Positions 5,933-18,314 of a stretch of DNA of 18,627 nucleotides are shown here, in pieces; position 1 is the first letter of the stretch; each line of letters starts with the position of its first letter. The stretch is taken from assembly GCA_013695175.1 (NCBI GenBank), contig JACDAZ010000027.1, forward strand, positions 1 through 18,627, in the 5' to 3' direction. The notes under the pieces are model-generated. The model saw only the letters and a list, made by a program, of their open reading frames with translations, made no database searches and was not told the origin of the DNA. Both the position numbers and the translations under genes were made by a program. This DNA comes from Flavisolibacter sp. (GTDB lineage Bacteria > Bacteroidota > Bacteroidia > Chitinophagales > Chitinophagaceae).

Positions 5933-7351
5933 TTAAAACCTGTTGGTCTGATAAAACTCAAGTACTTTTTTACGAAGAATAAAATCATATTGTGCAATGA
6001 CAAGATTTGCATTTGCCCTGTCAAGATTATTTTTTGCAATTAAATAATCTATAGAATTTCCAACACCTGCATTAAAACGTATTTCAGCTGCACGAAAAGA
6101 TTCTGTATAAGCAGCTACCTGTTCTCTCGATACTCTATACCTTTCCCAGGCATTATTCATATTTACATATGCCTGGTCAACCTCCTGTCTAAGCTGCAGG
6201 TTAACACTCTGTTGGTCGAGTTCAACATTTTTTAATTCGATTTTTGCGAGCCTGATCCTGTTACGTGCCTGGAAAGAATTAAAAATAGGAATACGAACTC
6301 CTACATTCACATTTGAAAAAATATTGTTCTCCAGTTGATCAAAATATCCAATACGGGATGTATTAAAATTGTTTACGTTTCTTATAACAGGTGTTTTTGA
6401 TCCGTTTACTAAAACAAAATCGTTGCTGGGAATTTCAATTGTGTTTTCAAATATATCACGTGTAGCTATACTTGAATAATTTGTATTAAGGTTACCACTT
6501 AGTACAACTGTAGGAAAAAGCTCACCTCTTACTGCTTTTATTCCTGCTTCTGCACTTTTTTTACGTAGTTCAGCAGCTTTTACTATTGCCATTCTTCTTG
6601 TTGCTTCATTAAATATTTCTTCTGCAGACAAGGTGGACTGGTTTAATAATTCTTCCATGGTTATCTGCTCCACTCTAATTTGAGGGTCGTATGGGATGTT
6701 CATTACCTGTGTCAAAGTAAGCCGTGCAGATTGGAGGTTGGCAAGATTGGTAACAACAGCCAGTTCATTTTCTTTAAGTTGCCCCAGCATATCATATAGT
6801 TGTGGCGGACTTATAGCTCCTTCGCGGTTCAGTATCTCCAGCCTCTCAACTTGTTTTTGTGTAACATCAGACTGGTTTCTGGCAACTTCAACCAGGTCTT
6901 CATTAGTAAGTACCTGCAGGTAAGCCAGAATTACATTTAAAGTAAGATTATCTTTTACCTGTTGCAGATCCATTTCAGCAGCATCTTTTGCATACTGAAA
7001 CTGTTTTATAGTTTGAACTTGAGTAAGACCATTAAATAATATCACATTGCTGTTGATACCATAGCTGGAATAGTTTATTGTTTGATTTACATAAGCATTG
7101 GTGAAGGGATCAATACTACGTCCCTGGTTTAAACCATAATTAAGGTTGCCGCCTACAGCAGGTAAACGGTTTAATCTTGCCTGGTTATAATTTATTTTAG
7201 CTGCTTCCACCTGCAGGTCTGCCTGCCTTGCAACAATATTATTTTCAATAGCAATATCAATTACTTCTCTTAAAGTGTATACTTTAGATTGTGCTCCTGC
7301 TATTATTGAAACAAATGAAGTAATGATAAAAAGAGATAAATACTTTTTCAT
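5933..7351 (-). CDS. TolC-family outer-membrane efflux channel
   Basis: A 472-residue outer-membrane factor that forms a trimeric channel across the outer membrane and periplasm. The signal peptide is residues 1-20 (ending SIIAGA-QS). Two OEP repeats follow, made of long alpha-helices with heptad-like Gln/Ala/Leu content, and two predicted beta-hairpin regions (about 65-110 and about 280-350). The protein ends in a terminal Phe (YQTNRF), the usual outer-membrane assembly signal. Length fits the family. Its ATG overlaps the ATPase stop by one base (TAATG), so translation is probably coupled. The context points to a tripartite export system, but the periplasmic adaptor expected between TolC and the ABC pump is absent from this window. 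Confidence 0.93.
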   Translation of the reverse strand: MKKYLSLFIITSFVSIIAGAQSKVYTLREVIDIAIENNIVARQADLQVEAAKINYNQARLNRLPAVGGNLNYGLNQGRSIDPFTNAYVNQTINYSSYGINSNVILFNGLTQVQTIKQFQYAKDAAEMDLQQVKDNLTLNVILAYLQVLTNEDLVEVARNQSDVTQKQVERLEILNREGAISPPQLYDMLGQLKENELAVVTNLANLQSARLTLTQVMNIPYDPQIRVEQITMEELLNQSTLSAEEIFNEATRRMAIVKAAELRKKSAEAGIKAVRGELFPTVVLSGNLNTNYSSIATRDIFENTIEIPSNDFVLVNGSKTPVIRNVNNFNTSRIGYFDQLENNIFSNVNVGVRIPIFNSFQARNRIRLAKIELKNVELDQQSVNLQLRQEVDQAYVNMNNAWERYRVSREQVAAYTESFRAAEIRFNAGVGNSIDYLIAKNNLDRANANLVIAQYDFILRKKVLEFYQTNRF

Positions 7352-8037
7352 TAGTGAGATGCATTTTGTAATGAAGGCTCTACACGTCCATCTAATAGAT
7401 TTATGATCCTGTTTCCATAAGATGCATTTTTTTCGGAATGTGTTACCTGTATAATAGTAACACCTTCCTCCTGGTTTAGCTGCTGAAACAACTGCATGAT
7501 TTCTTCACCTTGTGCTGTATTTAAATTACCTGTTGGTTCATCTGCTAAAAGCAATTTTGGTTTTGCTATTAATGCTCTTACTATTCCAACCAGTTGTTGC
7601 TGACCACCGGAAAGCTGCGAAGGAAACAGATCTTTTTTACCAACAATATTAAACTTGTCCAGCATATCTGCTACAATAGCTTTTCTTTCAGATGATTTTA
7701 CATTCTGGTAAAGAAGCGGCGTTTCTATATTTTCATAAACAGTGAGTTCATCTATTAAATGATAAGCCTGGAAAATAAAACCAATGTTTTTTTTATAAAG
7801 TTCGTTTCTATGTTTGTCTTTTAAATTATACACAGACTCGCCAAAAAAATGATATGCACCTTCATTAGGCATATCAAGCATTCCCACTATATTTAGCAAG
7901 GTTGACTTACCTGAACCGGAAGGTCCCATGATGGAAATAAATTCTCCTTCCTTCACCTTCAGGTTGATATCTTTTAAAATAAAAACAGGTTTACCACCTA
8001 CATTGTACCATTTAGAAATATGTTGCAGTTCAATCAT
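7351..8037 (-). CDS. ABC transporter ATPase, LolD/MacB type
   Basis: A 228-residue cytoplasmic ATPase that powers MacB/LolCDE-like mechanotransmission permeases. Walker A is GPSGSGKST (38-46), the Q-loop is Q90, the signature is LSGGQ (142-146), Walker B is LLLADEP (162-168) and the H-loop is H200. Two positions differ from the usual family sequence. The segment after the signature reads QQLVGIVRAL, with Leu149 where Arg is normal and Val153 where Ala is normal. The D-loop reads NLNT, with Asn173 instead of Asp. I believe these changes are shared by a Bacteroidota subfamily, so the protein is probably active. It is the only ATPase beside four permeases and so is likely shared. A 7-codon out-of-frame reading frame (ATG at 8053) overlaps its start. 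Confidence 0.93.
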   Translation of the reverse strand: MIELQHISKWYNVGGKPVFILKDINLKVKEGEFISIMGPSGSGKSTLLNIVGMLDMPNEGAYHFFGESVYNLKDKHRNELYKKNIGFIFQAYHLIDELTVYENIETPLLYQNVKSSERKAIVADMLDKFNIVGKKDLFPSQLSGGQQQLVGIVRALIAKPKLLLADEPTGNLNTAQGEEIMQLFQQLNQEEGVTIIQVTHSEKNASYGNRIINLLDGRVEPSLQNASH

Positions 8038-8092
8038 TTTTATATTTTTTCATCAATCTATATAATATAAGCAGTTTTTACTGAGAAGTCTT

Positions 8093-8109
8093 TCGTAATT
8101 CTGTACCAA
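8093..8109 (-). promoter_or_regulatory. Imperfect sigma-54-like -24/-12 element before the ATPase gene
   Basis: On the minus strand TTGGTACAGAATTACGA resembles the -24/-12 consensus (TTGGCAC, then TTGCA). GG and the next conserved dinucleotide are exactly 10 nt apart, but that dinucleotide is CG rather than GC. A start site would fall near 8082, about 45 nt before the ATPase ATG. Two direct repeats lie 52-84 bp further upstream, where activator sites of such promoters usually sit. The -12 mismatch keeps confidence low. Confidence 0.25.
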
Positions 8110-8160
8110 TTTTTTTAATTATTGAAAATGAACTAATTGTGCATAATAGCTATTAGCAGG

Positions 8161-8193
8161 TGTTCGTTTTTGATACAGGTTCTGTTCGTTTTT
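8161..8193 (-). promoter_or_regulatory. Pair of 11-bp direct repeats, candidate activator sites
   Basis: TGTTCGTTTTT occurs at 8161-8171 and again at 8183-8193, starting exactly 22 bp apart, about two turns of B-DNA. The first copy is followed by GATACA, giving an imperfect TGTTC/GATACA dyad. They lie in the 175-nt stretch between the heptamer array and the ATPase gene, where a promoter for the ATPase-TolC pair is expected. Same-face tandem sites suggest two regulator dimers (inference). The rest of 8038-8212 shows no gene. Confidence 0.5.
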
Positions 8194-8212
8194 ATAGGCA
8201 GGTTAGTAATTG

Positions 8213-8338
8213 GGTATCGGGAATCAGGTTTCGGGTATCAGCCATTAGCAATCAGCAATCAACTTTTTTATTTTACATTTTACATTAAATCCTAAATTTT
8301 TTTCACTATTGACCATTCACCATTCACTATTCTCATCT
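8213..8338. repeat. Heptamer tandem array A (18 units)
   Basis: Eighteen consecutive 7-bp units in unbroken register. On the plus strand they begin with GGTATCG, GGAATCA, GGTTTCG and GGTATCA and pass through two GCAATCA units. An AT-rich middle follows (TATTTTA, CATTTTA). The array ends with GACCATT, CACCATT and CACTATT, and the last unit runs into the stop codon of the 820-aa permease. The mRNA strand is the minus strand. Other arrays of the same type lie at 10822-10933 and 13344-13490. They are short degenerate units without spacers, so this is not a CRISPR. Confidence 0.85.
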
Positions 8339-10800
8339 CATTCACTTCGTAAATTCCTTACCGGGTTTGAAAGTGCTGCTTTAATAGCCTGTATACTTAT
8401 GGTAAAGAGCGCAACTGCCAGTGCCCCCAAAGCAGATAATATAAGAACCCACCATTGCACGTTAATCCGGTAGGCAAAATCCTCAAGCCATTTATTCATA
8501 CCTAACCATGCAACAGGAAAAGCTATAAGAGAAGCTATAAGTACAAGTTTCATAAAATCTACTGAAAGCATTTTGATGACATTGGAAACGGATGCACCCA
8601 ATACTTTCCTGATACTTATTTCCCTGCTTCTTAATTGTGTTGCATAGGCTACCAAACCCAATAAACCGATACAGGCAATAAAAATAGCTAACACTGAAAA
8701 AGCTGAAAAAACTCTTTTAGTAGTTTGTTCAGCTACATATTGATTCTCTAACGTCTGATCCAGGAAAGTAAACTTAAATGGCTCATCCTTTACAAATTTT
8801 TTCCAGGTTTGTTCTACATCATTTATAGTTTTTTGCAAATTATTTCCTTTAGTACGAATGGCTGTCAGCGGAAGGAAATTTTGAAACTGGGCTGCATTCA
8901 TAATAACAAGTGGTGAGATGGCTTGATGCATAGACTGAAAATGAAAATCTTTTACCACGCCGACTACCGTAAATTCATGTGGTGGTCCACCGGGTGGATT
9001 AAAATTGTCATCGAGATTATTAAGTTTAGCACCGACAGGATTGGTTAAACCCAATTCACTTACTGCCTTTTCATTAAGAACCACCGCAAGTGAATCTGTA
9101 AGGAACTGCGGGGAAAAAAACCGCCCTTCCTTCATCTCCAGTTGAAGTACCTGTGCAAACTGATTATCTGCAACAACTCCCCTGCCTGTCATTTGTTCAT
9201 TTGCACCTTTTTGCTGAAAAGTGGTTCCAAAATAATTTGCATTACCGGGTATAGTAGATGCATTGCTTATTGCTTCTACTGATACCAGCTTTTTTAATTC
9301 AGTATTGAAAGCTTCCCTTTGCTGGGCCAATACGTTAGCTCCCTTTACAACCAGTACCTGTTCTTTGTTAAATCCCAGTTCTCCTTCTGTCATAAATTTC
9401 ATTTGCTGGTTTACCACAATTGTACAAATAATAAGAACCACTGAGATAGCAAATTGAAAAACTACCAAACCATTTCGTAAAGCCAAACCCATAGTACTGG
9501 ATTTAAACCTGCCCTTTAAAACATATATGGGATTAAATGAAGAAAGTACAAAAGCAGGATATAAACCTGCCACAAAACCAACCATTAACACCAGAGATAG
9601 AATTACTATAAGCGTTTTAGGAGTGAACAAGGTTAATAAGCTAAGTTCTTTATTGGTAAGCTGATTAAACATAGGTAATAAAACAATTACAACAACAAAA
9701 GCTGCTATTACTGCCAATACACTAATGATCATAGATTCGATAAGAAACTGCTTTACCAGCATAGTTTTATCAGAACCAAAGGTTTTTCTGATACCTACTT
9801 CTTTTGCTCTTTCCATAGAACGGGCAGTAGAAAGATTAATAAAATTGATACAGGCCAGCAACAAGATAAAAACAGCAATAGCACTGAAAATATATACTGA
9901 GGTGATGCTTCCGTTGGTTCTTAACTCAGATTCCAGATGTGAAGTAAGATGAATTTTTTTTAAAGGTTGCAGGTAATAATTATAACCATTGCCTTGTGCC
10001 TGGAATTCTGCAAATGTTTGCCCGAATCTTCTTCCTACTTCACCTGCAACGTATTTTTCTAACAGCTGCGGAACTTTTGCTTCTATAGCTTTTGGTGAGG
10101 CATTAGGATGAAGTAATAGATAGGTATGAGCAGAAAAACCTATATAATTTGGCTGCTGCAAAAAAGGTGCTGCCACGGTGCTTACAAGTATATCAAAAAG
10201 GAAATGCGAATTCTCCGGCCAATCCTTTATAACACCATTAATGGAGAAAACATTGTTATTGTTATTATCTACTCCATCTATAGTAAATGTATTGCCCATT
10301 GCTTTTTCTACAGAACCATATAATTTTTTTGCTGCCGACTCTGTAAGTACTACAGCATTAGGTTTAGATAAAGCTGTTGCAGGATCACCATTTATAAAAT
10401 TGCTTGTAAATACATTGAAAAAATTGGAGTCTGCACCCAATACTCTTTTTTCCTCATGCAGCTGATCGTTTATCCGGAGGAAAAAACTACCGGCATTATT
10501 AAAATTAAAAACCCTTGTTGATTGGTTTACTTCAGGAAATTCTTTTTGAAAGGCTTCACCAATGGAATGCGGTATATTGGAATACGAAGTTGATCTTCCG
10601 GGATAACGCCTTTCTAATGCTATTCTGTAAATATCATCCGCATTTTCGTGGTGCCGGTCATAGCCAAGTTCTGAATCAATAAAAAGAACTATCAGAATAA
10701 CTACTGCCATACCGGTAGCAAGACCCAGAATATTAATGGCACTAAATCCTTTTCGTTTTAATAAACTCCTTATGGCTACTTTAAAATAATTTTTGAACAT
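8338..10800 (-). CDS. FtsX/MacB-type ABC permease 1 (820 aa)
   Basis: A full-length double permease: two MacB periplasmic domains and two FtsX membrane units in one chain. Membrane helices are near residues 21-41, 300-322, 350-375, 395-420, 440-462, 697-718, 745-767 and 780-802. The coupling-helix motifs that touch the ATPase are EVGIRKTFGSD (about 333-343) and EISIRKVLGAS (about 727-737); the first departs from the RKVLGA form of its paralogues. The periplasmic motif VVGVVKDFHF lies near 611-620. The C-terminus NPVRNLRSE is shared, with small changes, by all four permeases. It probably moves a substrate out of the inner membrane or drives periplasmic export with the shared ATPase. An Asn run (about 178-182) comes from an alternating AAT/AAC tract. 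It is the permease nearest the ATPase gene, separated by 300 nt. Confidence 0.9.
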   Translation of the reverse strand: MFKNYFKVAIRSLLKRKGFSAINILGLATGMAVVILIVLFIDSELGYDRHHENADDIYRIALERRYPGRSTSYSNIPHSIGEAFQKEFPEVNQSTRVFNFNNAGSFFLRINDQLHEEKRVLGADSNFFNVFTSNFINGDPATALSKPNAVVLTESAAKKLYGSVEKAMGNTFTIDGVDNNNNNVFSINGVIKDWPENSHFLFDILVSTVAAPFLQQPNYIGFSAHTYLLLHPNASPKAIEAKVPQLLEKYVAGEVGRRFGQTFAEFQAQGNGYNYYLQPLKKIHLTSHLESELRTNGSITSVYIFSAIAVFILLLACINFINLSTARSMERAKEVGIRKTFGSDKTMLVKQFLIESMIISVLAVIAAFVVVIVLLPMFNQLTNKELSLLTLFTPKTLIVILSLVLMVGFVAGLYPAFVLSSFNPIYVLKGRFKSSTMGLALRNGLVVFQFAISVVLIICTIVVNQQMKFMTEGELGFNKEQVLVVKGANVLAQQREAFNTELKKLVSVEAISNASTIPGNANYFGTTFQQKGANEQMTGRGVVADNQFAQVLQLEMKEGRFFSPQFLTDSLAVVLNEKAVSELGLTNPVGAKLNNLDDNFNPPGGPPHEFTVVGVVKDFHFQSMHQAISPLVIMNAAQFQNFLPLTAIRTKGNNLQKTINDVEQTWKKFVKDEPFKFTFLDQTLENQYVAEQTTKRVFSAFSVLAIFIACIGLLGLVAYATQLRSREISIRKVLGASVSNVIKMLSVDFMKLVLIASLIAFPVAWLGMNKWLEDFAYRINVQWWVLILSALGALAVALFTISIQAIKAALSNPVRNLRSE

Positions 10801-10821
10801 ATTGTTAGTTTTATATTATCG

Positions 10822-10933
10822 GCAATCAGCTATCAGCTATCAGGTGTCAGGTATCAGGTATAAGCAATCAGCAATTAACATTCACCATTCATCATACCAC
10901 ATTCATAACTCATAATTCATAATTCATAATTTA
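10822..10933. repeat. Heptamer tandem array B (16 units)
   Basis: Sixteen 7-bp units in unbroken register fill the spacer between permeases 2 and 1. On the plus strand they run from GCAATCA and two GCTATCA units through GGTGTCA and GGTATCA, GCAATTA, ACATTCA, CCATTCA and TCATACC to TAACTCA, TAATTCA (twice) and TAATTTA. Seven nt separate the array from the stop of permease 2 and 21 nt from the start of permease 1. Because the mRNA reads TGA in nearly every unit and the period is 7, stops occur in all three frames. Confidence 0.9.
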
Positions 10934-10940
10934 AAAATTT

Positions 10941-13325
10941 TCACTCAGTTCGTAAGTTCTTAACAGGGTTTGCCATAGATGTTTTTATGGCCTGTAAGCT
11001 TATGGCAATTAAGGAAACAACTAATGTTCCTAAACCCGCAACAACAAAAACCCACCATTCCATTTTTGTTTTATAAACAAAGCTATCCAGCCACTTGCTG
11101 GTTGCAAAAATTGCAATAGGTATGGCAAGTACCATAGCAATAACTATTAACCGAATAAAATCTTTTGAAACCAATGATAAAATATCTACCACAGACGCAC
11201 CCAAAATTTTCCTTATTCCTATTTCCTTAGTGCGTTGCACCATAGAATATGCAGTTAATGCAAATAATCCTAAACAAGCCAATAAAATAGCAATGAATGC
11301 AAAAGAAGTAAATACACCTGCAGTACGTTGCTCTGTTTTATAAAGATCATTGAATTCATCATCCAGGAATTTGTATTCAAACGGACGGTGTGGAACTCTT
11401 GACTTCCAGATCTTCTCCAAACCGGCTATTGTATTTTGTGTATTGTTACCGGATATTTTAATAAAAATAGATCCTAACATCCTTTTATCCAGGAACAATA
11501 CCATTGGATTGATTGCTTCATGAAACGAACGGAAATGAAAATCCTGAACAACAGCTTTTATTGTTCCTTCTCTTCCTTTTGATACGGTTTTACCTATTGC
11601 TTCTTCAGGAGACCAACCTAATGCTTTTACCGCAGCTTCATTTAGCATGAAAGTATAGCGTATATTATTACCCTGGTTGGTTGTATCAAAGGCCTGCACA
11701 TCACCCCAGGTGTAATCTGAACCGGCAATAATTTTTAATCCAACTGTCTTTACAAAATCTTCATCAACAGGTAAAGCATTTATACTGATTTGCTTGCCAT
11801 CAGTTGGCCTGTTTAAACCATCACTCCAGCCAATATGTGTTGGGGATTCATATGCACCACCAATGGAAATTACATTAGAGGTTGTAGCCAATGCCTTCTT
11901 TAGATCGTCATATTGTTCAGATATTTTTGAATCAACCGGTAATATAATGACCTGCTCTTTATCATAACCAAGATCTTTATTTTGAATAAAGGCTAGTTGC
12001 TGAAGTATAACAATAGTAGCAATAATTAAAAAAACAGAAATTACAAATTGAAAAACAATAAGTGATTTACGTAAAGTACCTGAGCCGGTAAAATGGAACC
12101 CTGATTTTAAAATATGAATCACTTTACCTGCAGACAATATAATTGCAGGATAAGCACCAGCTGTAAAAGAAACAACTGATGCTAAAATTAGTAATGATAG
12201 TAAAGTAAATGGCTTAAAGAAAATTTCAGCATTGAATTCTTTACCTGACAAATTATTGAAATAAGGAACTAAAACAGTGCAAATTACAAGTGCAAAAACA
12301 ACAGCTAACAATGTTATTAAAAATGTTTCGCAAATAAACTGGTTAAATACCTGCAGCCTGTTTGCCCCCAAAACTTTGCGCATTCCAATTTCACTTGTTC
12401 TCCTTGCAGATTGTGCAGTACTTAAATTAGTATAATTGACACCTGCAATAAGTAAAATGAGTATAGCAACTGCACCCAGTATATATATGTAAACTATGTT
12501 GTTACTGGGTTCTAATCCATCAAGCTTTGAATGTAATCGCACTTGTGTTAACGGTTCGAGATGATATTTCATATACTCATCTCCGGTAGTATTCATTTCC
12601 TCCTTACTTACTTTATCTGCATAAGCATATATCTTATTCTGTAGCGGTGCAATTGCTTCTGAATTATTCAACAATAAATACGTAACATAATTTGCTTCTG
12701 TCCATTTTTCTTCTTTAGATGCATTGAGTGAAGTAAAAGAACCAATAAAATCAAATTGTATTTGTGAATTATCAGGAGCATCTGCCGCCACTCCTGTTAC
12801 CATAAAATCTTTAATACCCACCTTTATCATTTTTCCAACAGGATCCTCTGATCCAAAATATTTCTTAGACATTGATTCTGTTACAACCAATTTATCAGGG
12901 GCATCTAAAACTGTTGCAGCATTTCCTATCAACAGCGGAAAAGAAAACATTGAAAAAAAAGCAGAATCTGCATATAGAAATGTTTTCTCTTCAAATAATT
13001 TATCCTGGTAACCAATGACCCTGGGATATTTCATCAATCGTACATAACTCTCCACTTCAGGAAATGTTCTCTGAAATTGAGGTCCTACTTTGGTACCGGT
13101 TGTTGCTGTTTTATTTGTGGCATCTCCAAAATGATATTCCCATGTAACCCTTGCTATTCTATTTCCATTTTCATGAAACCGATCATAACTCAGTTCATGC
13201 CATATGTAAACTCCAATAAACAAACAGCTGGCTATACCAATAGCTAAACCAATAATATTTACAAACGCATATAGCTTGTTTTTTTGCAAATGTCGTAATG
13301 CGATTTTAAAATAGTTGCGTATCAT
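10941..13325 (-). CDS. FtsX/MacB-type ABC permease 2 (794 aa)
   Basis: Second of four paralogous permeases. Helix 1 is at about 20-40 (FVNIIGLAIG). The first FtsX unit has helices near 277-298, 331-353 and 374-398, with coupling motif EIGMRKVLGAN (312-322). The second half starts with a helix near 421-441 and ends in helices near 672-694, 720-742 and 755-778, with coupling motif EIGIRKILGAS. The periplasmic motif KAVVQDFHFRSFHE matches the VVKDFHF motif of the others but has Gln for Lys. The C-terminus is NPVKNLRTE. Both halves appear intact. The role is as for its neighbours: an inner-membrane export or extrusion permease whose substrate cannot be read from sequence. Flanked on both sides by heptamer arrays. 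Confidence 0.9.
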   Translation of the reverse strand: MIRNYFKIALRHLQKNKLYAFVNIIGLAIGIASCLFIGVYIWHELSYDRFHENGNRIARVTWEYHFGDATNKTATTGTKVGPQFQRTFPEVESYVRLMKYPRVIGYQDKLFEEKTFLYADSAFFSMFSFPLLIGNAATVLDAPDKLVVTESMSKKYFGSEDPVGKMIKVGIKDFMVTGVAADAPDNSQIQFDFIGSFTSLNASKEEKWTEANYVTYLLLNNSEAIAPLQNKIYAYADKVSKEEMNTTGDEYMKYHLEPLTQVRLHSKLDGLEPSNNIVYIYILGAVAILILLIAGVNYTNLSTAQSARRTSEIGMRKVLGANRLQVFNQFICETFLITLLAVVFALVICTVLVPYFNNLSGKEFNAEIFFKPFTLLSLLILASVVSFTAGAYPAIILSAGKVIHILKSGFHFTGSGTLRKSLIVFQFVISVFLIIATIVILQQLAFIQNKDLGYDKEQVIILPVDSKISEQYDDLKKALATTSNVISIGGAYESPTHIGWSDGLNRPTDGKQISINALPVDEDFVKTVGLKIIAGSDYTWGDVQAFDTTNQGNNIRYTFMLNEAAVKALGWSPEEAIGKTVSKGREGTIKAVVQDFHFRSFHEAINPMVLFLDKRMLGSIFIKISGNNTQNTIAGLEKIWKSRVPHRPFEYKFLDDEFNDLYKTEQRTAGVFTSFAFIAILLACLGLFALTAYSMVQRTKEIGIRKILGASVVDILSLVSKDFIRLIVIAMVLAIPIAIFATSKWLDSFVYKTKMEWWVFVVAGLGTLVVSLIAISLQAIKTSMANPVKNLRTE

Positions 13326-13343
13326 ACAAGAAGTTTATTATTA

Positions 13344-13490
13344 GGTTTTGGGTATCGGGTTTCAGCACTCAGCTATCAGCAATTAGCTATCAGCCTTCAG
13401 CCTTCAGCATTCAGCTGTCAGCAATCAACTGTCAGTAAATAGCTTTCAGCAATCAACATTCATCATTAATAATTCATAATTCATAATTTC
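13344..13490. repeat. Heptamer tandem array C (21 units)
   Basis: The longest and most regular array: 21 units of 7 bp (147 bp) without a register break. On the plus strand it starts GGTTTTG, GGTATCG, GGTTTCA. A long run of GCnnTCA units follows (GCACTCA, GCTATCA, GCCTTCA twice, GCATTCA, GCTGTCA, GCAATCA). It ends ACATTCA, TCATTAA, TAATTCA, TAATTCA, TAATTTC. Exactly 18 nt separate it from the permease 3 stop and 18 nt from the permease 2 start. Confidence 0.93.
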
Positions 13491-13508
13491 TTTAATTCAT
13501 CATTCCAC

Positions 13509-15890
13509 CTACTCTGTCCTCAAGCTTTTTACAGGATTCATCAACGCAGCTTTTATTGCCTGAAAACTTATTGTTATTAAAGCCGTAAGCAAAGCCAATA
13601 GACCCGCAACAACAAATACCCACCATGCGATGTTTATTCTGTAGGCAAAATCCTGTAACCATTGATTCATAAAATACCAGGCAAGAGGTGCTGCTATAAA
13701 AAATGCAATCAATATCAGCAGCAAAAAATCTTTGGATAATAAACCTATAATATTATTGATACTGGCACCCATCACTTTTCTAATACCAATTTCCTTAGTT
13801 CGTTGAATGGTGCTGTATGAAGCAAGACCTAATAATCCTAAACAAGAAATTAAAATAGCCAGTATAGCAAAATTTAAAAACAGCTTTCCGAATCTTTCTT
13901 CGCTACGGTATTGCCTGTCAAAAAATTCATTTAAAAAATAATAACTGAAAGGCCGGTTCGAAATCAAAGTCTTCCATTTGCTTTCAATGGCTGCAATGGA
14001 TGCAGGCAAATTACCGGCAGCTACCTGCACAGATATTAAATAACTTCGGCTTGGTTCTATACGCATGGAAAGAGGTTCAATTTGTTCCTGTAAGGATTTA
14101 AAATGAAAATCTTTTACAACACCTATAATCTTCCCTTCCCTTCCCCATTGTTTAAATTTTTTTCCAATTGCTTTATGCGCTGAAGGATATCCAAAATATT
14201 TTACAGCCGCTTCATTTATTACCATTGCTTCTGTAGTGTCCATTCCAAACTCACGTGAAAAAGGACGGCCTGCTACCAGTTGAATCTGGTATTGAGGTAT
14301 GTAATCAAAATCAACAAAAAAAAGATCCAGGTTTGCCACCTGTAAATCACCATTGCTATTTTCAATTTCAGAATAAGCAGTTGAATGTGAGCCACCCGGA
14401 ACAGAAGAAGACAGAGTAGTACCTTTTATTCCCGGCAGCTTTGAAATTTCCTGTGTTAATGCATCCTTAGCTGCATCACCTTGCGTATCTAAAACTAGCA
14501 TTTGATCTTTTGCAAACCCAAGGTCATGGCTACGCATAAACGTCATTTGTTTATACACCACAATGGTTCCTATAATTAAAGCAATGGATATAGCAAACTG
14601 TGTGATCACCAGGCCTTTTCTTAACACAATTCCTTTACTGCTTGTTGCAAAACGACCTTTTAATACTGTTATGGGTTTAAATGATGAAAGCACCAGTGCT
14701 GGGTAAATACCTGCCATTAGACCTGCACCTATAGCCAGGGTAAAAAGAAGTAATAAATAATTATAGTTATCAAATATTCCGGTACTGATGGTTTTACCTG
14801 CTAATTGATTGAACAGAGGTAACAATAAGGCAGTTAAGATTAAAGCCAGTACAAATGCGAATAAGGAGAGCATTAACGACTCACCTATAAATTGTTTTAC
14901 TAATTGATTTTTTTCAGCACCAACTACTTTTCTTATACCTACTTCTTTAGCACGTTCTACTGAACGGGCTGTAGTTAGATTTATAAAATTAATATAGGCT
15001 ATCAACAAGATGAATGCAGCTATAACAGAGAAAATATAGACGTTGGTTATATTTCCTTTTTCTATGTTGCTTTCACGTTTTGAAAACAGGTAAACAAACT
15101 TTAAGGGTTCCAGGTATAAAGTGAAAAACATTTGGCTTTTTTCCATTTCTTTACCATTCCGTCTTTCAAGAAAAGCAGGAAATTTTCTTTCTAGTGCCCG
15201 GGGATCTACACCCGGTTTTAATTGTAAATAACTAACTGCATCAAAATTACTCCACTGTTCATCCAACCCAGGAATAATAGTTTGTGTAAGAGATGACATT
15301 GAAACAATTATATCCGCTTTAATTTGGGAATTTTCAGGTATATCCTCCATAACTCCTGTAATAGCTGCAGGGTAATAATCATAGAGAGAAATGGATTGCC
15401 CCATAGGATCTGCATCTCCGAAATATTTTTTGGCTGCTGTTTTAGATAATACTACAGTAAACAAATCCTTTAAAACCTTATCCGGATCACCTTTAATTAA
15501 TCTAAAATCAAACATTTTAAAAAAAGATGAATCTGCCCACAGCACCCGGTCTTCCTGAAATTTTTTGTCATCCTTTGTAATCAACATGCTTGTTTGTTGA
15601 ACACGTGTAAAAAATTCTACTTCGGGAAAATCATCTTTTATATTAGGTGCAAAAGGCCAGGCTGTAATGCCAGCATGAATGGTTTCACTGGGTGTTTTTA
15701 CATCTGTAACTAACCTGTAAATATGTGGAGCCTTTGTATGAAATGAATCATAACTTAATTCAAACTTTACATAAAGAAAAATAAGAAAACATGCTGCCAT
15801 ACCTACAGCAAGACCTATTATATTGATCAGAGAAAAAACTTTTTTCCTCAGTATGTTTCTAAAGGCAATTTTTATATAGTTTCTGATCAT
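13509..15890 (-). CDS. FtsX/MacB-type ABC permease 3 (793 aa)
   Basis: Third permease of the set. Helices are at about 21-42, 283-304, 336-360, 377-402, 425-446, 671-692, 720-742 and 754-776, giving four per half. Coupling motifs are EVGIRKVVGAE (316-326) and EIGIRKVMGAS (700-710). The periplasmic motif IIGVVKDFHF is at 588-597 and the C-terminus is NPVKSLRTE. The two MacB-like periplasmic domains lie at about 45-280 and 450-665. The start follows the stop of permease 4 by only 9 nt (TTATTTTTT), so these two are certainly one transcript. Full length, no frameshift seen. As a single chain with two membrane units it could work alone with an ATPase dimer, unlike the half-size MacB. Confidence 0.9.
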   Translation of the reverse strand: MIRNYIKIAFRNILRKKVFSLINIIGLAVGMAACFLIFLYVKFELSYDSFHTKAPHIYRLVTDVKTPSETIHAGITAWPFAPNIKDDFPEVEFFTRVQQTSMLITKDDKKFQEDRVLWADSSFFKMFDFRLIKGDPDKVLKDLFTVVLSKTAAKKYFGDADPMGQSISLYDYYPAAITGVMEDIPENSQIKADIIVSMSSLTQTIIPGLDEQWSNFDAVSYLQLKPGVDPRALERKFPAFLERRNGKEMEKSQMFFTLYLEPLKFVYLFSKRESNIEKGNITNVYIFSVIAAFILLIAYINFINLTTARSVERAKEVGIRKVVGAEKNQLVKQFIGESLMLSLFAFVLALILTALLLPLFNQLAGKTISTGIFDNYNYLLLLFTLAIGAGLMAGIYPALVLSSFKPITVLKGRFATSSKGIVLRKGLVITQFAISIALIIGTIVVYKQMTFMRSHDLGFAKDQMLVLDTQGDAAKDALTQEISKLPGIKGTTLSSSVPGGSHSTAYSEIENSNGDLQVANLDLFFVDFDYIPQYQIQLVAGRPFSREFGMDTTEAMVINEAAVKYFGYPSAHKAIGKKFKQWGREGKIIGVVKDFHFKSLQEQIEPLSMRIEPSRSYLISVQVAAGNLPASIAAIESKWKTLISNRPFSYYFLNEFFDRQYRSEERFGKLFLNFAILAILISCLGLLGLASYSTIQRTKEIGIRKVMGASINNIIGLLSKDFLLLILIAFFIAAPLAWYFMNQWLQDFAYRINIAWWVFVVAGLLALLTALITISFQAIKAALMNPVKSLRTE

Positions 15891-15899
15891 AAAAAATAA

Positions 15900-18314
15900 T
15901 TATTCAGTTCTTAAACTTTTTACCGGGTTTGTTAATGCTGCTTTTATAGCCTGAACACTTACAGTTACCAATGCCACTACTAATGCCAGTATTGCTGCAG
16001 TTATAAAAATCCACCATGGTATATCAATACGGTAGGCAAAATCTTCCATCCATTTACTTAATGCCCACCATGCAACAGGGAAAGCAATAACAGATGCAAC
16101 TATTACCAATAGAATAAAATCTTTGGATAACAGTGTTACAATCCTGGGGACACTGGCACCCAGCACTTTTCTGATTCCAATTTCTTTTGTTCTTCTTACT
16201 ACTACCAGTGTTGCCAAACCAAACAATCCCAGGCAGGCAATAAATATGGATAGGAAAGATGCATATTTAACTATGTTACCTAACCGCTGTTCCTGTTCGT
16301 AAGAAGCGGCAAGCGCTTCATCTAAAAATCTGAATTCAAAATTTTCATCAGCTGCTACGGTTTTCCAGGCAGCTTCCAAACTTTTTATATGCTCCTGTAC
16401 GTTGCCTTCACGAAAACGAACTGAGACTCTTGGCTGCGGTGAAGCATTATAACTAACATCACTCGAGTAGGCAAACATACTGTCTGGTTTTAATGCCATT
16501 ACCAGGGGAGCAATGGGTGTATGTAATGATTCAAAATGAAAATCTTTAACAACGCCAACCACTTGTTGCGGGTATTTACCCGGAAGCTTTTTACCAATAG
16601 GATCTTTCCATCCATATTGCATTACCAGGGCTTCATTTACAATAATCATATTGGAATCTGCCGTATTATTTTTTAAAAAGCCTCTGCCTGCTACAACTTC
16701 CAAGCCCATTGCAGGAATAAAGTTTTCATCAATAGCATTAAAACGAAATTGCCTGAATACACCTTTGTCATCACTATACCCTAAAGACATCCAACCTAAT
16801 TGCGCCATGCTGAACATGGAAGTGGTGGTGCTTATTACTTTGGGATTTTTCTGAATAGCTAATTCATATCTTTTTCCTAAAGCATTACCTAATTGCCTTG
16901 GCTTATTGGTAGGTACTATAATGACATGTTCTTTATTAAATCCAAGATTTTTATTTCTTAAATAATTTAATTGCTTACCTACAGTAAGTGTACAAATGAT
17001 CATTATTATAGAAGCAGCAAACTGTCCAACAATAAGCGCTTTTCTAAAAAAGCCCATGTTGTTACCAATATTTAATTTGCCTTTTAATACCTGTATAGGT
17101 TTAAAACCTGATAACACGATGGCAGGATAAAAACCTGCAATAAAACCAATAACAAGAATTAGAATAACAGAAAAAATGAGCGTAAAACTGTTTAACGAAA
17201 GAAATAATTCACGATTAGCAAGCTGGTTAAAATGTTTTAGTGACGCAAGGGCTAATAGAAAACCAATTATTATAGCTATAAATGTTAATAAAATAGACTC
17301 ACCCCAAAACTGCCTTACCAGTTGTTTTCTTTCTGCACCCAATACTTTTCTTACACCTACTTCCATTGCCCTTGTAGCCGACCGCCCAACAGATAGCGTT
17401 ACAAAATTGATGCACGCAATCAGCAATATCAATATTCCCACTGTACCAAGTATGTAGGAGTATTTTGGATCGCTGTAACCTCTTTCGCCTTCCGGTAGTG
17501 TAGTATTGAAATAGATATCTTCCAGGGGTTGCATCCTCACATTATATTCACCCGGTTTATAATTTTTAGCAACAAGTGGCTGTAAAATAGTAGCTGCTTT
17601 TTGATTAACATTTTCAACAGATGTGCCTTTTTGTAATAGAAAAAAACTGGCAACAGAAACATTTGACCAGGCACTGTTACGCGTTTGTTCGCTCCAGATG
17701 TATGAGGCATTGGAAAAAGGTATCACCATATCAAATTGAATATTTGACTCCATTGGTGCATCTTTAGCTAATGCTGTAATAGTGAATAAAATATTATCAT
17801 CTCCTAACTGGACCTCCAGGTTTTTACCTATGGGAGATTCATTACCAAAATATCTTTTAGATGCTCTTTCTGATATAACGATTGAGTTAGCTGTTGAAAA
17901 CGGATCTTGTTTATTACCTTCTAATAGAGGGAAATTAAATATTTTAAAGAAAGTGCTGTCTACCATATTCACTTCCTCATTAAATATATTGTTGTTGTAT
18001 TTAACTGGTGGACGCATGCTTGCGATCCGGCAGCTTAATTCTATTTCGGGTACGCCTGCCTGCAATACCGGAACAAGCGGAATGGGAGTTGCCGTATTTC
18101 TAAAAATTTCTCCCTGGTAAAATTCTTCCAGCCATGCACGATAAATTCTTTCTGAATTGGGATGAAAACGATTAAAGCTCCACTCGCTTCTGACAAAAAG
18201 AGCAATCAGGATACAGCAAGCAATACCTACTGATAATCCAAGCACATTAATAAAGGTGTAACCTTTGTGTCTTGATAAATAACGAAAAGCAATTTTTAAA
18301 TAATTTTTGAACAT
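15900..18314 (-). CDS. FtsX/MacB-type ABC permease 4 (804 aa)
   Basis: First permease in transcription order. Helix 1 is at about 20-41 (FINVLGLSVG); the first FtsX unit starts with a helix at about 286-307 and has coupling motif EVGVRKVLGAE (318-328). The second FtsX unit lies near the C-terminus with coupling motif EIGIRKVLGAS, and the end is NPVKSLRTE. The VVGVVKDFHFESLHTPIAPLV stretch in the second periplasmic domain is the clearest family motif. It is joined to permease 3 by a 9-nt gap and follows the NTF2-like gene by 57 nt. All features for a working permease are present. Substrate is unknown; related Bacteroidota proteins are usually annotated as antimicrobial-peptide or macrolide-type exporters by homology only. 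Confidence 0.9.
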   Translation of the reverse strand: MFKNYLKIAFRYLSRHKGYTFINVLGLSVGIACCILIALFVRSEWSFNRFHPNSERIYRAWLEEFYQGEIFRNTATPIPLVPVLQAGVPEIELSCRIASMRPPVKYNNNIFNEEVNMVDSTFFKIFNFPLLEGNKQDPFSTANSIVISERASKRYFGNESPIGKNLEVQLGDDNILFTITALAKDAPMESNIQFDMVIPFSNASYIWSEQTRNSAWSNVSVASFFLLQKGTSVENVNQKAATILQPLVAKNYKPGEYNVRMQPLEDIYFNTTLPEGERGYSDPKYSYILGTVGILILLIACINFVTLSVGRSATRAMEVGVRKVLGAERKQLVRQFWGESILLTFIAIIIGFLLALASLKHFNQLANRELFLSLNSFTLIFSVILILVIGFIAGFYPAIVLSGFKPIQVLKGKLNIGNNMGFFRKALIVGQFAASIIMIICTLTVGKQLNYLRNKNLGFNKEHVIIVPTNKPRQLGNALGKRYELAIQKNPKVISTTTSMFSMAQLGWMSLGYSDDKGVFRQFRFNAIDENFIPAMGLEVVAGRGFLKNNTADSNMIIVNEALVMQYGWKDPIGKKLPGKYPQQVVGVVKDFHFESLHTPIAPLVMALKPDSMFAYSSDVSYNASPQPRVSVRFREGNVQEHIKSLEAAWKTVAADENFEFRFLDEALAASYEQEQRLGNIVKYASFLSIFIACLGLFGLATLVVVRRTKEIGIRKVLGASVPRIVTLLSKDFILLVIVASVIAFPVAWWALSKWMEDFAYRIDIPWWIFITAAILALVVALVTVSVQAIKAALTNPVKSLRTE

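Follow-up and report, generated by a model that had tools for sequence, protein, structure and literature searches.

The STRR heptamers of cyanobacteria are tandem units of 7 bp that lie between genes, and the arrays described below resemble them in both respects, the comparison being one by description only. Among the tandem repeats between genes, heptamers are reported to be the most frequent in many different prokaryotes, with unknown function (SPADE survey, PMC6344855), and slippage tied to a 7-nt polymerase contact has been suggested for them (Mrazek 2007 survey, via PMC4679880). A survey of DNA features found longer-unit repeats to be normally or weakly over-represented (PMC4060949), and a survey of prokaryote satellites describes one short-repeat group as being as a rule species-specific and as having probably moved through the genome by transposition (PMC6749651). 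Direct repeats of TAACTGA are present in Beggiatoaceae, Cyanobacteria and five Bacteroidetes, in some of them with other heptamers alongside, so that the first-pass annotation of the present locus, which knew of no named equivalent in Bacteroidota, has to be corrected in this point (PMC4679880). Moreover, GGGNATC/GGGAATC repeats are found in Xanthomonas and Nostoc (PMC4692102), and the P6b stem of the Nostoc trnL intron is built of degenerate heptanucleotides of two classes (PMC3488679, PMC4476775).

On its minus strand the window, by which we mean the whole analysed stretch of 18,627 nucleotides, carries four consecutive MacB-type permease genes, after which come an ABC ATPase gene and a gene for outer-membrane efflux. 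Two of the four permeases were compared with Pfam. The features needed here are:

7351..8037, minus strand: gene for the ATP-binding protein of an ABC transporter; array A and the region 8038-8212 lie upstream of it
8213..8338, minus strand: array A, in the spacer 3' of the permease gene 8338-10800; period 7, with phase shifts within
8338..10800, minus strand: MacB-type permease (MacB_PCD + FtsX); TGA stop, then array A
10822..10933, minus strand: array B, in the 140-bp spacer 10801-10940; 16 heptamers in a single register
10941..13325, minus strand: MacB-type permease (MacB_PCD + FtsX); TGA stop, then array B
13344..13490, minus strand: array C, in the 183-bp spacer 13326-13508; 21 heptamers
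13509..15890, minus strand: MacB-type permease, by similarity to the gene 10941..13325; TAG stop, then array C
15900..18314, minus strand: first permease of the run; TAA stop, then a 9-bp spacer without array

Besides the arrays, six CGG units are found at 458-475 of the window. They belong to the gene 174-500, whose small product resembles an RNA-binding protein, and encode part of its glycine-rich tail. By eye, the region 8038-8212 and the spacers before the ABC ATPase gene in the loci L048, L051, L277 and L273 have a recurring block in common, GTATCAAAA..GAACAC followed by TTGG(T/C)A, which is reminiscent of an enhancer together with a -24 element of the sigma-54 type. A strict pattern for this block matched six places in five of 12 loci, some of them coding-like, and had no match in the window.

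The coordinates and unit counts given in the first-pass annotation were confirmed, with 126, 112 and 147 bp for A, B and C corresponding to 18, 16 and 21 heptamers. Lag-7 identity amounts to 0.64 in A, 0.77 in B and 0.69 in C (z 8.6-10.4), and none of 2000 dinucleotide shuffles reached such values. An exact 7-bp tandem period above chance is therefore found in all three arrays, as it is in the intergenic heptamer repeats of prokaryotes, and all three likewise sit in spacers. Read on the transcribed strand, array B runs from TGAATTA through TGAATGK, TGATTGC and TGATACC to TGATAGC, and array C from TGAATTA through many TGAWNGC units to CGATACC/AAACC. Array A, whose high end abuts the stop codon of the gene 8338-10800, has a TGAATGG block, an A/T-rich middle with TAAAATG and then TGATTGC, TGATACC and CGATACC units. 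The unbroken register claimed for all three arrays holds for B and C, where TGA recurs at the same phase of the transcribed strand, but not for A, in which the TGAATGG block and the TGATTGC/TGATACC block are out of phase on either side of the A/T-rich stretch and which TRF divides into four segments.

Similar to the intergenic heptamers of other prokaryotes, the window arrays have a 7-bp unit, but those consist, as described, of one unit per repeat, whereas here several ordered unit classes recur at several loci (PMC6344855, PMC4679880). The common order of B and C, which had been noticed before, was borne out by unit alignment, with a score of 27.5 against 20.2 +/- 2.3 for permuted units (reached by 4 of 2000) and 16.0 for the reversed order. 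The order is not strict: in B, TGATACC is followed by a return to TGATAGC, and at the end of A and C, GATACC and AAACC take turns. At the sequence level B and C are 73% identical (BLAST), a value at which convergence from a common vocabulary is possible and which we therefore counted against copying.

A similar succession, TGAATTA/TGAATGG, then GCTGA units, GATACC and AAACC towards the next start codon, follows permease stops on two other contigs of this genome (G000) with MacB-type permeases, C215 and C312. A protein search of the genome (E up to 1e-100) retrieved eight permease genes, five of which have a composite directly after them; these five composites lie on three contigs, show one succession of unit classes and all read from stop to start. 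No composite directly follows the permeases C429:15903, with its 9-bp spacer, and C312:885, with a spacer of 73 bp, and between the permease C215:2485 and the weaker copy behind it lies a gene of 429 bp. In pairwise tests at the sequence level, seven of the ten pairs among the five composites scored higher than all 300 unit shuffles, and in the other three pairs 1, 2 and 15 of the 300 shuffles scored as high. With reversed order as a control, the score was lower in eight of ten pairs, slightly higher for A-B and tied for C-C312. The arrays are dense in the window, with three in 5.3 kb (five segments with the same detector) compared to three in 337 kb of 60 other G000 contigs. Gene conversion via recently duplicated permeases was considered and rejected, as the other seven permeases of the genome have 34-40% identity to the query permease protein and copies are also found beside unrelated genes. 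The strict pattern TGAATTATGAATTAN{8,38}TTGCTGA and its swapped version, with two matches (B and C) and none, respectively, in 298 genomes, were too narrow and missed even C215 and C312; their results are no evidence that the order is absent elsewhere.

Further copies were sought with a sequence-only profile model built from the five composites A, B, C, C215 and C312. At E up to 1 it matched 36 places in this genome, counting the five on which it was trained, and a model of reversed order likewise matched 36. The best untrained places are C215:5338-5437, C19:10894-11043, C419:2967-3108, C223, C345 and C63, and all six favour the forward over the reversed model by 5.7 to 17.9 bits (37.8 vs. 19.9 bits at C215:5338 and 34.6 vs. 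16.8 at C419). Among the 14 untrained places with at least 15 bits in either model, eight favour the forward and six the reversed one, the latter (C491, C388, C94, C173, C384 and C91) with at most 21 bits. By eye, the left-to-right order is recognizable at C215:5338, C19, C419 and the weak C239 (E 0.07), is least clear at C345, and C223 holds the right half of the composite only. The C19 copy, which is one of the three period-7 arrays of the 337-kb, 60-contig sample, is situated in the tig-clpP spacer, in the orientation opposite to both flanking genes; that at C239 lies 3' of a DinB-family gene, that at C345 near a gene for a solute-binding protein, and that at C419 between a gene without Pfam match and an esterase gene. 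The forward model also scores an array of the relative G013, the vocabulary of which differs, at 38.1 bits, on a par with the best untrained place of this genome, and the E-values of the model are therefore no proof of common descent.

The vocabulary of the composites was compared with the published words. The TAACTGA repeats are likewise intergenic heptamers, long in Bacteroidetes and missing from matching spacers of some relatives, but in a Beggiatoaceae genome they mostly stand just before start codons, whereas the arrays here mostly stand just after stops (PMC4679880). Tandem TAACTGA pairs were absent from both strands of seven composites, with one single TAACTGA in C419. Words of the GGGNATC type of Xanthomonas and Nostoc occur on the strand opposite to transcription, three in A and one each in C and C215 (PMC4692102). 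A loose two-G quadruplex pattern matches array A, and neither tandem GGGANTN (at least two units including GGGAATC) nor a four-G3 quadruplex was found in the seven composites. The P6b stem of Nostoc trnL has in common with the arrays degenerate 7-nt classes, unit-wise change of length and repeated class shifts at one site; its units pair into the intron hairpin, whereas the window arrays have no convincing fold (PMC3488679, PMC4476775). Its words TDNGATT/NNTGAGT match at most once per composite, and fold z ranged from -0.1 to -2.9 in this comparison. We conclude that the window arrays belong to a known class, the bacterial heptamer repeats, in an ordered composite form, and are not a new kind. 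In the literature searched, in which subscription journals were largely not included, an ordered multi-class heptamer array common to several loci was not found.

As the best explanation we tentatively propose, with a probability of about 0.47, that copying carried an ordered composite from spacer to spacer within this genome and that 7-bp slippage and substitution later made the copies diverge. Direct observations are the unit order, the additional copies, the shortness of orthologous spacers and, in one relative, G013, the placement at gene 3' ends. The suggestion that one element was copied to several places finds support within this genome for C215 and C312 and, more weakly and by eye, for C215:5338, C419, C19, C239 and C345, whereas the copying step is one that we infer. 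The three arrays would accordingly be lineage-specific degenerate heptamer repeats, and a composite that reads TGAATTA/TGAATGG, GCTGA units, TGATACC/CGATACC and AAACC on the transcribed strand would have been copied among spacers, with targets mostly just 3' of stop codons and chiefly in MacB-type permease operons. The copies would then drift via gain and loss of 7-bp units and via substitution. Copying may have occurred by ectopic recombination or template switching between similar arrays, array length may change through 7-nt slippage, and the arrays may be tolerated because spacers after stop codons are presumably little constrained.

The spacers of orthologous operons speak in part for a gain in this lineage. 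The gene 10941-13325 has orthologues with 63-70% identity in five relatives, in which the spacer corresponding to that of array C measures 12 bp (G007), 10 bp (G011), 6 bp (G002), 109 bp (G006) and 186 bp (G009), without a detected array in the last two. The idea that MacB operons are a general array site was dropped, since the permease loci of relatives hold three arrays in about 293 kb; the preference for permease loci is thus peculiar to this genome. At the locus L277 of G005, the spacers after the permease stops 6794 and 9265 have another ordered composite in common, which consists of GAATGACGAAT, then GATGATG/GATGATA units and then TATAAAC/TATAAAG words.

Dispersed copies, most of them with their left end at a stop codon, and short orthologous spacers might also be left by a small, non-autonomous mobile element whose body consists of heptamers and which inserts beside stop codons. 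Among 83 permease genes, arrays follow TGA/TAG in 7 of 28 cases and TAA in 1 of 55 (p 0.0017), which would suit such an element, five of these eight array cases being from this one genome. In G003, all five arrays in this comparison go with non-TAA stops (p 0.019), but the link is not seen in G013 (14 TAA vs. 17 other stops, p 0.35) and is not significant in the G000 sample, and a switch to TGA/TAG stops was rejected as a general rule. Furthermore, copy length varies, and neither terminal repeats nor fixed ends, which are the mark of a transposable element or MITE, were noticed in the aligned composites of this one genome; target-site duplications, a shared flank or a donor copy were not noticed either. 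We regard a mobile element as very unlikely.

A further possibility is a functional mRNA cis element between co-transcribed genes, be it a stop-rich insulator, an RNA structure or a repeated regulator-binding site, for which the single orientation of the five permease copies after a stop codon could speak. Array C has a better fold than 198 of 200 shuffles and C312 gave fold z of -1.9 and -3.0 in two runs, but the values for A (-0.1), B (-1.5) and C215 (-0.3) are weak, and in G013 17 of 43 arrays have fold z below -2, similar to 23 of 59 array-free spacers. An RNA hairpin found no support for the window arrays, and the folding of A, B and C215 is unremarkable. The six copies linked to permease loci have 0.087-0.143 stop codons per nt in sense compared to 0.036-0.071 in antisense; however, dinucleotide shuffles of the sense strand retain most of this density, the bias is opposite in C419, and sense exceeds antisense in just 14 of 29 arrays of G013. 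A stop-codon insulator was rejected as well, the bias being mostly composition and not general. The constrained structure that the first-pass annotation had offered as an alternative therefore found no support, with fold z from about -0.1 to -3.0 and a strand bias that is mostly compositional and absent in G013. As the orthologous operons also do without such arrays, we consider a functional element unlikely.

The relatives of this genome show how heptamer arrays are distributed elsewhere. In 400 kb of G013, 39 arrays were found at period 7 and nine at period 8, with at most seven at the other tested non-multiples of 7 (4 to 20); the G003 sample gave 10 at period 7 vs. 4, and the 60-contig sample of G000 three at period 7, three at period 9 and four at period 21. 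Shuffled sequence of G003 and G000 contained no period-7 arrays. An excess of period 7 over other periods is clear in G003 and G013, where 7 is the commonest unit, whereas in the G000 sample it ties second behind period 21. The coding autocorrelation of G000 was inflated, which we ascribe to runs of N. In G013, 33 arrays adjoin the 3' end of a gene, and 58% of these are no more than 15 nt from a stop codon (31% at random); for start codons the share at this distance is 21% of 24 (35% at random), and one of 34 arrays lies in a divergent spacer, a type that accounts for 11,347 of 50,824 intergenic bp. Placement in G003 is weak, with 57% of seven arrays near a stop and 50% of eight near a start. 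For these placement counts and for the comparison of TAA with other stops above, the coding mask followed a longest-ORF rule without a gene caller, and some stops may be wrong. In favour of copying, arrays of G013 separated by less than 5 kb resemble one another more than permuted arrays do (similarity 11.25 vs. 8.79 +/- 0.72; 17 of 5000); against it, neighbour similarity among the 12 arrays of G003 is not significant (652 of 5000). A conspicuous region of G013 (L374; C1, about 2,010,960-2,018,970) has ten heptamer composites within 8 kb. The genes there are short and may code for ribosomal proteins, and five of the ten composites have GCTGTTA-type words with a reverse-complement arm.

The tig-clpP spacer has period-7 segments in six of 17 relatives at a permissive threshold (L423, L425, L429, L430, L432 and L438), with about five vocabularies, G010 and G012 having similar ones; a contig end truncates one of the 17 stretches, and several tig stops are probably misplaced. 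By eye, inverted heptamer arms surround a terminator-like hairpin in some relatives. Heptamer arrays therefore appear to form again and again at one type of site, for the most part with words peculiar to the species, and this makes independent growth with convergence the main rival of copying. Each array would have grown by slippage at its own site, and vocabulary and order would follow from a similar local seed, i.e., a gene 3' end with TGA, and from the mutation bias of the genome. This is also in line with one array of G005 that repeats the GAATGA of the gene end, and with neighbouring units in B and C that are unusually alike (0 and 1 of 5000 shuffles as high). Furthermore, runs of the heptamer TGATWGC occur across many bacterial phyla, including candidate phyla, in at least 116 stretches (L076-L191). 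By eye, those among the matches listed are mostly pure runs, in which the succession seen in G000 was not noticed. The pattern (TGANNNN) is present in 36 of 58 relatives; as many of these contain matches to its backwards control as well, the result shows heptamer arrays generally and not TGA ones. Alone, slippage with convergence gives no account of the common succession of unit classes on three contigs and beside unrelated genes, and we regard it as possible but doubtful.

The same gradient, for which the first-pass annotation had proposed to look elsewhere, recurs at other loci of this genome, but other species have other vocabularies and there is no universal gradient. Of the two outcomes that would have spoken against the first-pass reading, no excess of period 7 and a random unit order, neither clearly came about. 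In 22 other genomes the forward model gave the better best E-value in 20 and more matches in 18, with models that are unmatched in length and information, and the order may thus be partly common across the genus. A broader form of the copying hypothesis would be that heptamers spread as ordered composites throughout the genus, by dedicated or replication-linked copying between gene 3' ends and with an own "grammar" per genome, which we hold to be rather unlikely.

Ordered units that are common to several loci keep a history that is missing from pure runs, and they could therefore separate copying from slippage. The placement at gene 3' ends in G013 provides a concrete site to watch in sister strains. 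In this way, ordered arrays ease the study of a repeat type that is widespread in bacteria.
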